IMG/VR virus record: IMGVR_UViG_3300031787_001045
Span: 1-20,220 of that record
DNA: 20,220 nt
DNA from: a virus
Strand: one strand, 5' to 3'
Part shown: positions 8,139-16,805 of the stretch, one piece after another
Numbering within the stretch: the stretch's first letter is position 1
How the letters are laid out: each line of letters starts with the position of its first letter
Translations under genes and position numbers: made by a program
The notes under the pieces: generated by a model
What the model saw: only the letters and a program-made list of their open reading frames with translations
Database searches by the model: none
What the model was told of the DNA's origin: nothing

Positions 8139-8410
8139 AAGAATCAGAACTCCAAACAAAGATTAAAGACCGCCTCCAAAAGCACGGTTGGTTAGTAGTT
8201 AAGCTCATCAGCACCAACTGGAACGGCATCCCCGATCTGTTATGTATGCGCAAAGGTGTGAGCATATTCTTAGAAGTCAAGACTGATACGGGGGTTTTAG
8301 CCCCGTTGCAAGAGCATCGGATAAAGACACTGAACAGCATCGGCATACATAGCCGAGTGGTTAGGAGCTTAGAGGATATAGATGTTTATTGTTATAAATT
8401 AAATGGATAG
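8135..8410 (+). CDS. VRR-NUC domain nuclease
   Basis: This 91-residue protein is a stand-alone VRR-NUC domain. It has ESELQTKIKDRLQKHGWLVVK at the N terminus, then NGIPDLLCMRKG with the catalytic Asp, then SIFLEVKTD with Glu and Lys completing the PD-(D/E)XK site, and PLQEHRIKTLNSIG as the conserved helix. Such phage nucleases cut branched or Holliday-type DNA structures. The location directly before the primase-helicase fits resolution of replication intermediates before packaging. It overlaps the acetyltransferase gene by 4 bases and the primase gene by 8. Length and motifs are complete. Confidence 0.88.
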   Translation: MKESELQTKIKDRLQKHGWLVVKLISTNWNGIPDLLCMRKGVSIFLEVKTDTGVLAPLQEHRIKTLNSIGIHSRVVRSLEDIDVYCYKLNG

Positions 8411-10913
8411 AATGCACCTAAAATACTTAGAACACGGAGTAAATGTAATTGCGGTTAATGATAACAAACAAGCTATCTTTCCTTGGAAGGTTTACCAAGA
8501 GAGCAGGATAACTGCTGAGGAGGCTAACACACAAATGGCTGACCCAAGGACTAAAGGGTTAGCAGTTATCTGCGGAGCAGTGAGTGGAGGACTCGAGGTG
8601 ATAGACATTGATACGAAGTATGAGACCTATCCACTTTGGGATGCAATAAAAGAAAAGATACCTTCTGACCTTTATGCTCGACTCCAGGTTGTGCAGACAA
8701 AGAGTGGTGGCATTCATTTGTACTATAAGTGCGAGGTGATTGAAGGCAATCAGAAGTTAGCTCAGAGGATGCCAACTGCCGAGGAGAGCAAAGCCAACCC
8801 ACAAATTAAAACCTATTGCATCATCGAGACAAGAGGTGAGGGTGGGTACGTGGTGGCTCCTCCAACACAAGGGTATACGATTATTCAGCGTGGACTAAGT
8901 GTGCTGAGCATTGCTGAGCGTGATACTTTGTTCGAGATTATGCGGTCCTTTAACGAGATTATTGAAGAGGTAGTAATAGAGGCTCATCAGCGACCAAGTG
9001 CGAAGGATTATGGTAAGAGTCCGTTCGATGATTACAATCAGAAGGGAGATATTGTCAAGCTATTGACTGACAATGGATGGTCGTTTGTCAAGCAGAACTC
9101 TGACAGGATATATTTCTTACGACCAGGCTCGAGTGCCGAGCATAGTGGCTCATATAATAAGAGTATGGGGTTGTTTTCAGTGTTTAGTGTTAACACACCA
9201 TTCTCGGTTGGGAAAGGATATAAACTAAGTGCAGTCTACGCAATATTAGAATGTGGAGGAGACTTTAAGATGGCAGCCAAGCAACTCTTTGAGCAAGGGT
9301 TCGGTGAAAAAAAAACGTCTTTTGGAGACAAACTTGAACGCAGTTTGTTTACTAAGAAGCAGAACGGAGCCACAAAAGATGAACTGGTTTCTTATCTTGT
9401 GCAGTCCCAACGTAAGGGTGTAGCTGACGCGCAGCTTATGGTTGATGAGTTGGAGGAAAGGTGGGGTGAGCAAGTATGTACATTTTGGGACATTGATAAG
9501 AACGGAAACCCGATTATCAATCGCTATAAGCTGCAAGTGTTCTTGACTACTAATGGTGGGTTTAGACTTTACTTTTATGATCCGAATAGCACAATTTATC
9601 GGCTCATCAGAATCAAGGATGGGTTCGTAGAGGAGAGCAGCACAGAGCAGATTAAGAGGTTCATCAAAGATTATATCGATAGGCTACCTGACTCGTTTGA
9701 TGGTGGGGTGACACCTCAAGATTTGCTTGAGCATATTTATAAAGGTGCTTCAGTGTTGTTTTCTGATGCGTTCTTCGAGTTTTTTGATAGGGCAGAGATA
9801 GAGTTTTTGACAGATAGTAAGGAGGTTAGTTACATACCGTTTAAGAATGGAGTGGTATGTATCAGTAAGGACTCGATTGAGATGCGAACCTACGGAGAGC
9901 TTAATAAGTTTGTTTGGCGCAATCAAATTATCGACCATCATATTTATGTCAACCAAGAGCAGGACAGTGCTGATATAGAGTATTATAGGTTCATCAGTAG
10001 GGTGAGTGGAGATGATACAGAGAGGATAATGTATGCAATTACGCTGATTGGATATCTACTACATGGTTATAAGGACCCAAGCCGACCATTCAGCGTTATA
10101 TTGGCTGAAGAGACGGAGAATGAGAGCAATGGTGGAGGCACTGGTAAAGGAATATTTGTAAAGGCATTAGGGCATTTGTCGAGCTTGGTTCGGGTGGATG
10201 GTAAGAACTTTAAGGTTGATAAGAATTTTGCGTTCCAGCGTGTAGATCTTGATACAAGGATATTAGCCATTGAGGACACGAGGAGGAACGTGGATTTTGA
10301 AGGGTTCTATTCTATCATTACAGAAGGCATAACTGTCGAAAAGAAGAACAAAGACGAGCTGTTTATCCCTTATAAGGACTCTCCAAAGGTGATGTTTACG
10401 ACTAATTATACCATCCCGAACATGGGCAACCACGCTAAAAGAAGGCAGAAAGTGTTTGAGTTCTCGAGCTACTTCGGAATTGCGAGGACTCCTGAGGATG
10501 AATTTGGCAAGAAATTGTTTGATGATTGGGACAAAGATGAATGGAATAGGTTTTTTAATTTGATGTTTACCTGTGTCCAGCTTTATTTAGAAAGTGGTGT
10601 TTTGGAGGTTGCAAACTCGGAAAAATTACATCGTAAACAAGTCCGTGTACAGTTCGGAGAGGAGTTTTTAGAGTTCTTAGATAGGCAGAAGGATGAGAAG
10701 GATGTGTGGATAACTTTCGAATTTATGTACAATGAATTTCTAAAAATGACTGGTTTTGACAAGAAAGATTACTCGATGAAAAGGTTTAGCAGGGCGGTAG
10801 ACGAATCGTGTACTATTTTAAAAATCGCGTACCTGAGTACGCGATCTAAGGAACATTCGAACCGAAAATGTATAAAGTTCGTAGAGACTGATATTGTTAA
10901 TCAGATATTGTAA
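8403..10913 (+). CDS. Primase-polymerase fused to SF3/D5-type replicative helicase
   Basis: The 836-residue protein combines an archaeo-eukaryotic primase-like (prim-pol) N-terminal domain and a C-terminal SF3 helicase. The prim-pol metal site is VIDIDTK (Asp68, Asp70), and SGGIHLYYK at 101-109 is the sGGxHxY motif. The helicase has Walker A GGGTGKG at 577-583, Walker B ILAIED at 620-625 and the sensor MFTTNY further on. The middle region (about 200-500) is a linker with no recognised motif, and the C-terminal tail (about 720-836) may hold a winged helix for DNA binding. It should make primers and unwind phage DNA. It overlaps the VRR-NUC gene by 8 bases. Its 3' end contains a DnaA box and the first iteron copies. 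Met4 (8412) is an alternative start. Confidence 0.9.
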   Translation: MDRMHLKYLEHGVNVIAVNDNKQAIFPWKVYQESRITAEEANTQMADPRTKGLAVICGAVSGGLEVIDIDTKYETYPLWDAIKEKIPSDLYARLQVVQTKSGGIHLYYKCEVIEGNQKLAQRMPTAEESKANPQIKTYCIIETRGEGGYVVAPPTQGYTIIQRGLSVLSIAERDTLFEIMRSFNEIIEEVVIEAHQRPSAKDYGKSPFDDYNQKGDIVKLLTDNGWSFVKQNSDRIYFLRPGSSAEHSGSYNKSMGLFSVFSVNTPFSVGKGYKLSAVYAILECGGDFKMAAKQLFEQGFGEKKTSFGDKLERSLFTKKQNGATKDELVSYLVQSQRKGVADAQLMVDELEERWGEQVCTFWDIDKNGNPIINRYKLQVFLTTNGGFRLYFYDPNSTIYRLIRIKDGFVEESSTEQIKRFIKDYIDRLPDSFDGGVTPQDLLEHIYKGASVLFSDAFFEFFDRAEIEFLTDSKEVSYIPFKNGVVCISKDSIEMRTYGELNKFVWRNQIIDHHIYVNQEQDSADIEYYRFISRVSGDDTERIMYAITLIGYLLHGYKDPSRPFSVILAEETENESNGGGTGKGIFVKALGHLSSLVRVDGKNFKVDKNFAFQRVDLDTRILAIEDTRRNVDFEGFYSIITEGITVEKKNKDELFIPYKDSPKVMFTTNYTIPNMGNHAKRRQKVFEFSSYFGIARTPEDEFGKKLFDDWDKDEWNRFFNLMFTCVQLYLESGVLEVANSEKLHRKQVRVQFGEEFLEFLDRQKDEKDVWITFEFMYNEFLKMTGFDKKDYSMKRFSRAVDESCTILKIAYLSTRSKEHSNRKCIKFVETDIVNQIL
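10705..10713 (-). promoter_or_regulatory. Perfect DnaA box within the primase 3' end
   Basis: TGTGGATAA on the plus strand is the exact complement of the high-affinity DnaA box TTATCCACA. It lies about 100 bp before the first iteron copy. Its partner lies at 11197-11205. Being inside a coding region, it could be chance on its own, but the pairing with the iterons and the downstream box supports an origin. Confidence 0.55.
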
Positions 10914-11115
10914 GAAAAATGGGGTTTTGGGTACGCGATTTTGGTGATTAGTACGCGATTGGTACGCGATTGGTACGCGATTAAAGTGCTGATAATGAGG
11001 TCGGTACGCGATTTACGCGATTTTCCCTTGTTTTTTTTTGGTCTTGCAAAATTTAATGCGTTTTTTTTAATGGGGGGAGGTAGAAAAAAATCGCGTACAC
11101 CGTGTAATCGCGTAC
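10804..11115. repeat. Iteron cluster GTACGCGATT, candidate phage replication origin
   Basis: Eleven copies of a 10-bp motif are present. Exact GTACGCGATT occurs at 10931, 10951, 10962, 10973 and 11004, and its exact complement AATCGCGTAC at 10823, 11089 and 11106. One-mismatch copies are at 10804 (reverse), 10837 and 11013 (forward). The direct copies at 10951, 10962 and 10973 are spaced 11 bp apart, one helical turn, and 10823/10837 form a palindrome with a CTGA loop. The array covers most of the 319-bp non-coding gap after the primase and reaches into its last codons. Iterons beside an initiator or primase gene are the hallmark of theta-type origins. Confidence 0.85.
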
Positions 11116-11144
11116 TGAGATATGTCGAGCAAATGGTATGAATG

Positions 11145-11205
11145 AGATTTTTGTATAAGATATAGTATATAAAATATAATTATATTATATTAGTAGTTAT
11201 CCACA
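11145..11205 (+). promoter_or_regulatory. AT-rich unwinding element followed by a perfect DnaA box
   Basis: From about 11152 to 11196 the sequence is almost only A and T (with TATATAAAATATAATTATAT), directly followed by TTATCCACA at 11197-11205, a perfect DnaA box. It lies between the iterons and the gene for a DnaA domain IV protein starting at 11233. It fits a DNA unwinding element plus initiator box. The same stretch may also hold the promoter of the downstream gene, although no good TAnnTTTG box is seen. Confidence 0.65.
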
Positions 11206-11232
11206 ATTTAAGAAAATTTAAAAAGTAATAAT

Positions 11233-11619
11233 ATGGTGAATTTAGAGAATGTTTTGGAGGCCGTATCGAATGTCACTGGTGTACCATCCGAAAAGGTTTT
11301 TGGCAAGGATAGGTATAGAGAGGTAGCTGCTGCTCGGCATATGTTTTGCTATGCGGCAAGGATGCATACCGACCATAGTCTGAAAAATATCAGCAGGTTT
11401 TTGGGAAGGGATCATACAACTGCTATAAATAGCATCAAAGTATGTAACGATATGATTGACATACAAGATGAGGTTTTTGTTGGTACCATCAACGAGATTA
11501 ATTCGTATATCATTAAGGAGTTTAAGAAGGATCATGAAATCCGAGTTGTTTTGCCATATCATGTTAAACTTTCAGATGTACGGGAGTTTTTGGAGGGGTT
11601 AGGGTGTGAGGTGAGGTGA
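11233..11619 (+). CDS. Stand-alone DnaA domain IV-like DNA-binding protein
   Basis: Residues 1-95 of this 128-residue protein match the C-terminal DNA-binding domain of DnaA: ENVLEAVSNVTGVPSEKVFG, then YREVAAARHMFCYAARMHTD, SLKNISRFLGRDHTTAINSI. The GRDHTT block is the DnaA signature that contacts the DnaA box. No AAA+ ATPase domain is present. The last 30 residues (VVLPYHVKLSDVREFLEG) are a separate small extension. It probably binds DnaA boxes or the iterons at the adjacent origin, either to start phage replication with the primase-helicase or to compete with host DnaA. A perfect TTATCCACA lies 28 bases before its ATG, so it could also control its own gene. Domain identity is very clear, role inferred. 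Confidence 0.88.
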   Translation: MVNLENVLEAVSNVTGVPSEKVFGKDRYREVAAARHMFCYAARMHTDHSLKNISRFLGRDHTTAINSIKVCNDMIDIQDEVFVGTINEINSYIIKEFKKDHEIRVVLPYHVKLSDVREFLEGLGCEVR

Positions 11620-14849: not shown

Positions 14850-16805
14850 ATGGACCAAACACTAAAGACTAACAAAGTATTCGAGATACTAACTGATTCG
14901 GACAAGAGGATAACGGTGATGCAAGGAGGTTCTCGTTCGGGTAAGACTTACAACATTCTAATTTGGTTTATTGTAAAATTACTCCAGGAGAACGGCAAGA
15001 CATTAACAATCGTAAGACAATCGCTTCCATCTATCAAGGGTACTGTGTTAAGGGACTTTATCGACATACTTGGTAGACTTGGGATATATTCAGAGGACAA
15101 CCACAACAAAACTGACCAAATTTATTCTTTGAATGGTAATATAATTGAGTTTGTATCGGCAGATCAACCTCAGAAGATAAGAGGTCGTGCGAGGCAGTAT
15201 TTATTCTGCAATGAGGCGAACGAATTGACTTATGAGGCTTGGATGCAGTTGATAATGAGAACGGAGGGTAAGATAGTGATAGACTATAACCCATCGGACT
15301 TATCGAGCTGGATTTATGACTCTGTGATACCGAGAGACGATGCGGACTTTCACATTACTACTTTCAGAGACAACCCGTTTCTTCCAAAGGAGTTGGTGTT
15401 GGAGCTTGAGAGGTTAAAGGATGCAGACCCTAACTACTGGACCATTTATGGATTGGGAGAAAGGGGACTAAGCCAAGACTTGATATACTCACATTGGAAG
15501 ACAACGGAGCAGATGCCCGAGGAAGGAGAGGTGGTGTACGGATTGGACTTTGGGTTTAACGTGCCGAGCAGTTTGATAAAAATAGTGTTTGTAGAAAATT
15601 CTGCTTATGTGCAGGAGTTAATTTATGAACCAAAACTAACTACTGCTGATTTAGTTGAGAAAATGAAGCAAATCGGTATTGATAGGTATGATGAAATATA
15701 CTGCGATGCTGCCGAGCCTAAGACGATAGAGGAGATGATAAGAAACGGATTTAATGCTAAACCAGCAAATAAAGACGTTACTGAGGGAATTAGAACTGTA
15801 AAAGCTACTCCATTAATAATACATGAAAATAGTGTAAATTTACTAAAAGAAGTAAAGAATTATAGGTGGAAAACGGATAGAAATGGTAATAAGTTGGATG
15901 CGCCAGTAAAATTTAACGATCACGCGTGTTTTATTGGTGAAACAATGATAAGCACCATTGATGGACTAAAAAGGATAGATAAAATTGAGGAAGGCGATTT
16001 AGTATTGACTTCTGAAGGATATAGAAAAGTAAATAAGCTCTTTGATAACGGGTTGCATCTTGTGGAAAAGTATTCGATGCAATTCGATACGTTTAAATTA
16101 ACTTTGGTTTGTACTCCAAATCATAAAGTTAAAACAAACGAAGGATGGACAGAGATTTCGAAATTACAATCGGGGATGACGGTATACCTCAACAATTTTA
16201 TAGAGGAAAGTCATTTAGATTACAGTCAGGTGAACGATACTTCAACAATGGACCACACAAGATGCATTGGTGGGTATGGGAGCAAGAGACTGGAAACAAA
16301 CGACCAAAAGGATACCACATCCATCACATTGATGGAAACACTTGGAACAACCGAATCGAAAACTTGCAACTACTCGAATCAAACAAACACCTTAGTGATC
16401 ACATCAAAAAGCGAATCGAGACTAACAGAGAGTGGTTTGTTGATTTTCAAAAGAAAGGCATCGCAAAAGCTCCTGAATGGCATAAATCGCCTGAAGGAAT
16501 TAAATGGCACCAAGAACACGCAAAAAAGCATAACTTTGGTAAGCAAGACTATGGGATGGGGAAGTGTGAACAATGTGGGAAAGAATACCATAGAAAAACA
16601 ACAAGAGCAAAATTCTGCCATCTTAATTGCAGAGCTAAAGCACTTAGAGTCAGAAGGAAGTTGGAAGGAAAGAGTGTATGATTTAAATGTTGATACTACA
16701 CATGAATACTTTGCCAACGGATTGTTGGTCCATAATTGTGATGCAATGAGATACGGCATATTTAGTAAATTAACAATCCCAAGTGTGACTTGGGGTGCAA
16801 TATAA
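14850..16805 (+). CDS. Large terminase subunit (TerL) interrupted by an intein
   Basis: The 651-residue precursor contains the packaging ATPase and headful/cos nuclease. Walker A is GGSRSGKT at 26-33 and Walker B YLFCNE at 117-122 with Glu122. The nuclease domain has GLDFGF with Asp233, YCDAAEP with Asp286 and, split by the intein, NDHA...CDAMRY with the third acidic residue Asp631. Residues 360-629 are the intein. The joined exteins give 381 residues, short but normal for a Terminase_3-like subunit, and splicing restores FNDHACDAMRYGIF. Without splicing the nuclease site would be broken, so active packaging should depend on it. The base composition becomes more AT-rich from about 15580. The gene follows a 324-bp gap after the small terminase and lies 5 bases before the portal. 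Confidence 0.93.
   Translation: MDQTLKTNKVFEILTDSDKRITVMQGGSRSGKTYNILIWFIVKLLQENGKTLTIVRQSLPSIKGTVLRDFIDILGRLGIYSEDNHNKTDQIYSLNGNIIEFVSADQPQKIRGRARQYLFCNEANELTYEAWMQLIMRTEGKIVIDYNPSDLSSWIYDSVIPRDDADFHITTFRDNPFLPKELVLELERLKDADPNYWTIYGLGERGLSQDLIYSHWKTTEQMPEEGEVVYGLDFGFNVPSSLIKIVFVENSAYVQELIYEPKLTTADLVEKMKQIGIDRYDEIYCDAAEPKTIEEMIRNGFNAKPANKDVTEGIRTVKATPLIIHENSVNLLKEVKNYRWKTDRNGNKLDAPVKFNDHACFIGETMISTIDGLKRIDKIEEGDLVLTSEGYRKVNKLFDNGLHLVEKYSMQFDTFKLTLVCTPNHKVKTNEGWTEISKLQSGMTVYLNNFIEESHLDYSQVNDTSTMDHTRCIGGYGSKRLETNDQKDTTSITLMETLGTTESKTCNYSNQTNTLVITSKSESRLTESGLLIFKRKASQKLLNGINRLKELNGTKNTQKSITLVSKTMGWGSVNNVGKNTIEKQQEQNSAILIAELKHLESEGSWKERVYDLNVDTTHEYFANGLLVHNCDAMRYGIFSKLTIPSVTWGAI
15927..16736 (+). 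mobile_element. Intein in TerL (270 residues, Cys1...His-Asn, +1 Cys)
   Basis: The intein begins with block A CFIGETMISTIDGLKRIDKI and EEGDLVLT. Block B is LTLVCTPNHKVKT with TPNH at intein residues 63-66. Block F is RVYDLNVDTTHEYFANG at 249-265, and block G is LLVHN (penultimate His269, Asn270), followed by +1 Cys. All residues for normal protein splicing are present. The part between blocks B and F (about 96-248) is Ser/Thr/Asn/Lys-rich and matches no endonuclease in this frame, while another frame of the same DNA encodes an HNH enzyme. The insertion site, inside the third catalytic motif of the nuclease, is typical of inteins, which favour conserved active sites. Confidence 0.93.
16145..16681 (+). 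CDS. HNH homing endonuclease encoded out of frame inside the intein
   Basis: The 178-residue protein is a complete HNH enzyme. An N-terminal beta region (FYRGKSFRLQSGERYF, then MHWWVWEQETG) leads into the core GYHIHHIDGNTWNNRIENLQ, with His60/His61, Asn69 and Asn73, followed by HLSDH. A C-terminal zinc finger has Cys141, Cys144, Cys158 and Cys162. Its frame is one base behind the intein frame. Three in-frame stops lie upstream (16094, 16124, 16130), so it is not fused to the intein N terminus. ATG 16145, preceded by GAAGG, is the likely start, and TGA 16679-16681 falls within intein block F. It probably cuts intein-less TerL genes and so spreads the element. Expression from the TerL message by internal initiation is inferred. 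Confidence 0.88.
   Translation: MDRDFEITIGDDGIPQQFYRGKSFRLQSGERYFNNGPHKMHWWVWEQETGNKRPKGYHIHHIDGNTWNNRIENLQLLESNKHLSDHIKKRIETNREWFVDFQKKGIAKAPEWHKSPEGIKWHQEHAKKHNFGKQDYGMGKCEQCGKEYHRKTTRAKFCHLNCRAKALRVRRKLEGKSV

Follow-up and report, generated by a model that had tools for sequence, protein, structure and literature searches.

The 20,220-base stretch analyzed here, referred to as the window and corresponding to a complete IMG/VR record, raises the question whether the short repeats in which a primase-polymerase (Prim-Pol)/helicase gene ends are a replication origin and, if so, which protein reads them. An earlier note on this DNA had proposed a phage origin composed of iterons, an A/T-rich element and two DnaA boxes, in which the Prim-Pol gene ends and which is followed by a gene for a DnaA-domain protein. 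This gene context could be confirmed, as the Prim-Pol/DUF5906 gene terminates inside the array and the open reading frame for an orphan DnaA domain-IV protein starts at position 11233 (Table 1). The product of the former gene is annotated as DNA polymerase/primase in PHROG. Terminase, portal, protease and other phage genes are also present, and the record probably represents a part of a larger phage genome. A DNA similarity search against known phages did not return any DNA-level match to the repeat region. The GC-skew check suggested by the earlier note did not point to the array, as cumulative skew is monotone without a turn at this position, with nearly all genes lying on one strand.

The terminase large subunit gene (14850–16805, + strand) contains an in-frame intein near the nuclease domain (Pfam Intein_splicing, Hint). 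Another open reading frame (16145–16681, + strand) with an HNH_3 endonuclease domain (E = 5.9e-14) lies wholly within the intein-coding part but uses a different reading frame, and thus represents a nested homing-endonuclease gene. In the closest relative (L010/G001), encoding a primase 97% identical to that of the window, the terminase is free of an intein at this insertion place; a different intein-like insert, also in frame and about 300 codons long, is found at its Walker A motif.

Table 1. Features in and around the repeat array. Positions refer to the window; exact and mismatch refer to GTACGCGATT.
Feature	Position	Strand	Basis
Prim-Pol/DUF5906 helicase gene, 836 aa, proposed initiator	8403–10913	+	Pfam PF09250 (E = 4e-14), PF19263 (E = 1.4e-7)
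DnaA-box match TTATCCACA (box 1), Val-Trp-Ile codons, outside conserved core	10705–10713	−	
Predicted winged-helix domain of initiator, aa 772–827	10716–10883	+	AlphaFold2 model
Coding repeat c1, one mismatch, codons ...E-S-C-T, end of predicted recognition helix	10804–10813	−	
Coding repeat c2, exact, codons I-A-Y, start of first wing strand	10823–10832	−	
Coding repeat c3, one mismatch, codons S-T-R-S	10837–10846	+	
Repeat 1, exact	10931–10940	+	
Repeat 2, exact, 20 bp from repeat 1	10951–10960	+	
Repeat 3, exact, 11 bp on from repeat 2	10962–10971	+	
Repeat 4, exact, 11 bp on from repeat 3	10973–10982	+	
Dyad element, decayed in window: CTGATAATGAG	10989–10999	no strand	
Repeat 5, exact, 31 bp from repeat 4	11004–11013	+	
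Repeat 6, one mismatch (TTACGCGATT), 9 bp on from repeat 5	11013–11022	+	
T-tracts and G-run GGGGGGAGGTAGAAAA, candidate DNA-unwinding/priming region	11023–11088	+	
Inverted repeat r1, exact	11089–11098	−	
Degenerate inverted repeat ACCGTGTAA (ACCGTGTA) between r1 and r2	11099–11107	−	sequence
Inverted repeat r2, exact	11106–11115	−	
A/T stretch, not core	~11152–11196	no strand	
DnaA-box match TTATCCACA (box 2), ahead of DnaA-IV gene	11197–11205	+	
Orphan DnaA domain-IV protein, 128 aa	11233–11619	+	PF08299 (E = 2.7e-18)

In line with the earlier count, a segment of 312 bp (10804–11115) contains eight exact copies of GTACGCGATT or its complement and three further copies with a single mismatch, including the three direct copies at 11-bp spacing formed by repeats 2 to 4. 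From dinucleotide composition, only about 0.02 exact copies are expected in the whole stretch; hence, the cluster is far above chance.

Scanning viral contigs with the primase-helicase yielded 80 relatives (42–100% identity), to which scans from distant members added more. Nearly all of them show short repeats at and after the 3′ end of the primase-helicase gene, the repeats themselves belonging to at least 12 alphabets within this phage family, with types such as GTACGCGAT, GTACACGAT, GTACGTGAT, GTACGTCAT, TAACATCAT, TTGCGCGAT and GTAGTCCAT as well as GTAATCGAT, GTACCACTT, GTACCGCTT, TAACCACTT, GACTTGAT, GACACGAT and GTAACCGAT. Typically, six direct copies are found after the stop codon, spaced by about 20, 11, 11, about 31 and 9 bp, and both this spacing and the position are kept among relatives with quite different repeat letters. 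Deviations are seen in the L050 type (first step of 10 bp and a wider gap of 53 bp before copy 5) and in the L022 and L035 types (gap before copy 5 of about 42 bp). A dyad is located between copies 4 and 5, followed by T-tracts and then a G-run, and most clades possess inverted copies, which at the place of r1 and r2 are about 9 bp apart. Other tandem repeats, G-runs and inverted copies were recognized by eye 3′ of the gene in L284 (39% identical) and in L090 and L091, two distant loci from Bacteroidetes metagenome-assembled genomes (MAGs) that were the sole matches in a search of genome contigs. Judged from about 80 related phage loci, the array is an origin-like element of rigid anatomy and changeable letters. 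In two arrays, two repeat kinds are distributed by position, as if letters switch copy by copy: L043 carries GTAGTCCAT at positions 1, 5 and 6 and GTAGCGCA at positions 2–4, while L033 has TAACATCAT-like repeats with ATACGCGAT retained at position 5.

The interpretation as a replication origin is strengthened by this comparison, since dozens of phages show the array at the same place beside this gene, along with its spacing skeleton, dyad and G-run. The segment 10804–11115 is very likely the phage replication origin, lying partly within the gene of its own initiator, for which the Prim-Pol/helicase is the best candidate. The region of melting or priming is likely 11023–11088, as suggested by its position between repeats of opposite orientation and by the conserved order of a T-rich part and then a G-run, which recurs in most relatives. 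At 11071–11088, 3′ of the T-tracts, six to nine G residues are followed by roughly GTAGGAAA, and this sequence is conserved in most relatives. The earlier note had assigned an origin role to the 45-bp A/T stretch further downstream. This stretch does exist, but it differs even in L010, where the surrounding DNA is nearly identical, and is therefore rejected as melting region. The dyad shows a family-wide consensus of TTGAT(A/T)ATCAA with the core kept in most relatives, and at position 5 of its arms 28 of the 33 distinct sequences are complementary, against 18.9 expected, with changes from T-A to C-G. In the window and in L010, the dyad is broken by a change in one arm, the origin being otherwise intact. 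Single-strand folding of the region is strong (z = −5.2) with the inverted repeats pairing, so that long-loop stems are possible. A long stem-loop as the main signal was nevertheless dismissed, as the inverted repeats account for the fold and some clades have decayed coding copies.

The three repeats upstream of the stop codon encode, according to the winged-helix model, the end of the recognition helix, the first wing strand and the wing. For the complete gene of 836 codons, the frequency of identical codons at positions with the same amino acid was compared with the expectation from codon usage. If windows at the ends of the alignment are disregarded, the excess is highest at about codons 802–813, corresponding to the coding repeats. 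Within c1, codon identity amounts to 0.79 for TCG (expected 0.19) and 0.87 for TGT (expected 0.50), and within c2 the alanine codon is GCG in 17 sequences (0.89 versus 0.32 expected). Moreover, for 17 of 27 types, the coding segment has more 8-mers in common with its own array than are obtained by synonymous recoding (p < 0.03), with 45 shared 8-mers in the window versus 1.5 after recoding. In most clades, the coding copies thus fit their own array beyond the needs of the protein sequence, and codon choice shows that they are under selection at the DNA level. Coding copy and array are switched jointly, giving the pairs IAY/GTACGCGAT, IVY/GTACACGAT, ITY/GTACGTGAT, MDY/GTAGTCCAT and IDY/GTAATCGAT, with IML as a further amino-acid version of the switched copy. 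Between L050 and L058, the coding copy follows the array by a purely synonymous AGT to AGC change, and in L059 it is found in a shifted reading frame with one mismatch to the own array. In L178 to L180, the stop codon lies further on, resulting in a coding repeat 1. As the coding copies have decayed in L030, L036, L054 and L082, they are not strictly required and would help rather than define the system.

Because c1–c3 lie within codons of the winged helix that would itself bind the repeats, repeat and wing cannot change independently. Tentatively, the coding copies might be a coupling device by which initiator and origin change together and new pairs arise as matched sets, although this is rather doubtful. 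If true, these phages would be split into many mutually incompatible replicons on one fixed spacing skeleton.

Regarding the protein reading the repeats, the AlphaFold2 model of the initiator's C terminus (mean pLDDT 83.8, about 86–95 across aa 772–827) shows a helix-helix-strand-strand order with a predicted recognition helix at aa 792–805 and wing strands at aa 809–815 and 821–827. Domains are hence arranged in the order Prim-Pol, helicase and winged helix, where the helicase assignment is derived from the DUF5906 match and phage annotations. A PDB fold search with the C-terminal model gave only weak winged-helix-like matches, none of them significant (best E of 0.07), and a profile search of PDB sequences, considered with regard to homology to SaPI Rep and Cch2 proteins, did not return any match. 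Co-variation was evaluated by Mantel tests on 22 related sequences, for which the repeat registers were set by hand, excluding the codons of the coding repeats from the winged-helix distance. With helicase distance accounted for, repeat distance still follows that of the winged helix (partial Mantel r = 0.28, p = 0.012); the reverse test gives a weaker relation (r = 0.17, p = 0.06). Together with the codon identity, the shared 8-mers and the winged-helix model, this indirectly supports the primase C terminus as putative binder of the repeats. According to the mechanism proposed here, the 836-aa Prim-Pol/helicase would bind the GTACGCGATT repeats via its C-terminal winged helix, assemble on the repeats flanking the T-tract/G-run segment in opposite orientation, melt this segment, load as helicase and prime synthesis by its own Prim-Pol domain.

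A DnaA-dependent origin, at which host DnaA and/or the DnaA-IV protein would bind boxes and repeats and melt the 45-bp A/T stretch, appears very improbable. It could draw on the two perfect boxes and on the equivalents of the DnaA-box-contacting residues R399, R407 and H434, which are invariant in 62 of 62 orphan proteins. Both boxes are indeed present, as the earlier note had claimed, but they lie outside the array and, like the A/T stretch, are not conserved as parts of the origin. An exact box 2 is limited to the window and L010, apart from an inverted one in L035, and box 1 is confined to the clade of the window and L035. Other clades examined do not show a strict TTATNCACA box except for one TGTGTATAA in L054. 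Fewer than one perfect 9-mer is expected by chance, as the earlier note had stated (about 0.26 per stretch on both strands), but a pair of matches is a mild departure from this, and the looser TTWTNCACA shows no enrichment in the stretch (4 found versus 3.5 expected). In addition, domain IV by itself does not possess an ATPase for melting DNA. Of the 72 relatives whose sequence extends far enough, 62 have the DnaA-IV gene immediately downstream. However, the array is also kept in L073, where this gene is found elsewhere in the contig, and in L083, where none was detected in the record; the DnaA-IV protein is therefore judged unlikely to be the repeat reader. Together with the Mantel result, this makes the primase-helicase the likely reader, while the target of the DnaA-IV protein is probably another; it may well be an accessory or host-directed DnaA-box binder. 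DnaA-IV proteins with invariant box-reading residues regularly adjoin the origin, and a conserved DnaA box was not found nearby.

It is also unlikely that the array is an operator through which the primase winged helix, or a different regulator, controls the genes for replication or for DnaA-IV. Autoregulation via repeats of the origin is common among initiators, and the placement of the repeats between two genes would be compatible with such control. However, the array lies 3′ of the primase gene and not ahead of it, its rigid family-wide skeleton around the T-tract/G-run and dyad is origin-like, and copies within the primase coding sequence are hard to square with control of a downstream gene. 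A promoter scan of the array region gave nothing above chance. Phage repeats can further have pac or par functions, and terminase genes are encoded about 4 kb downstream of the array. A packaging, partition or recombination site is nevertheless extremely unlikely, considering that the repeats accompany the primase gene and vary in step with the winged helix it encodes; par genes were not seen among the proteins scanned.

The origin arrangement favored here can be compared with several known systems. In the case of SaPI Rep and SCCmec Cch2, the proven or proposed origin is found just downstream of the helicase/rep gene, and its repeats are recognized through the C-terminal domain (PMC7581432). 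By this description, the present locus resembles these elements in that short repeats directly follow the gene of a proposed helicase initiator. It differs in the fusion of Prim-Pol to the helicase, in repeats reaching into the initiator codons and in the conserved dyad and G-run. A C-terminal winged helix, here predicted, joined to Prim-Pol and helicase, with the proven or probable origin downstream, is shared with pRN1 ORF904 and phage BIP-1. The proven or proposed origin of pRN1 lies immediately 3′ of the gene, and the pRN1 and BIP-1 origins are reported to be large stem-loops of about 100 nt without iterons (PMC4234260), whereas short repeats dominate here and an iteron-free stem-loop was not found. 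As with SGI1, whose oriV directly downstream of rep combines iterons, an AT-rich segment and a DnaA box (PMC7433901), a probable iteron origin directly follows the gene of the proposed initiator. The Rep is different, however, and the present phage family does not share conserved DnaA boxes, which would characterize DnaA-dependent origins. The orphan protein matches domain IV of bacterial DnaA (PDB 1J1V, 3PVP) with the box-contacting residues kept; unlike bacterial DnaA, it is devoid of the AAA+ domain and is encoded by a separate gene beside the origin.

In lambda and lambdoid phages, origin repeats are situated within the O gene, adding or constraining amino acids (PMC7466680, PMC3985674), and repeats inside an initiator coding sequence under DNA-level constraint are found here as well. 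The O protein, however, is neither helicase nor primase and its origin is located mid-gene, while the initiator proposed here bears Prim-Pol and DUF5906 domains, the array extends across the 3′ end of its gene and the coding copies encode a part of the winged helix. By this comparison, the phage family would join a downstream origin of the SaPI/pRN1 type with an intragenic origin of the lambda type, the coding copies being placed in the DNA-binding domain. Such an arrangement was not described in the open-access text searched.

Compared with the earlier note, the view of the parts that matter is corrected, as the DnaA boxes and the A/T stretch would not be among them. If the origin reading is true, a dozen natural combinations of winged helix and repeat, all set on a constant scaffold, are available in a single family of uncultured phages. 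Since protein and site change together across relatives, this family is a natural data set of protein-site recognition, from which the recognition code of Prim-Pol/helicase initiators would become readable and testable. It would also show how initiator and origin can swap partners without functional loss, and the pairs would constitute orthogonal replication modules.
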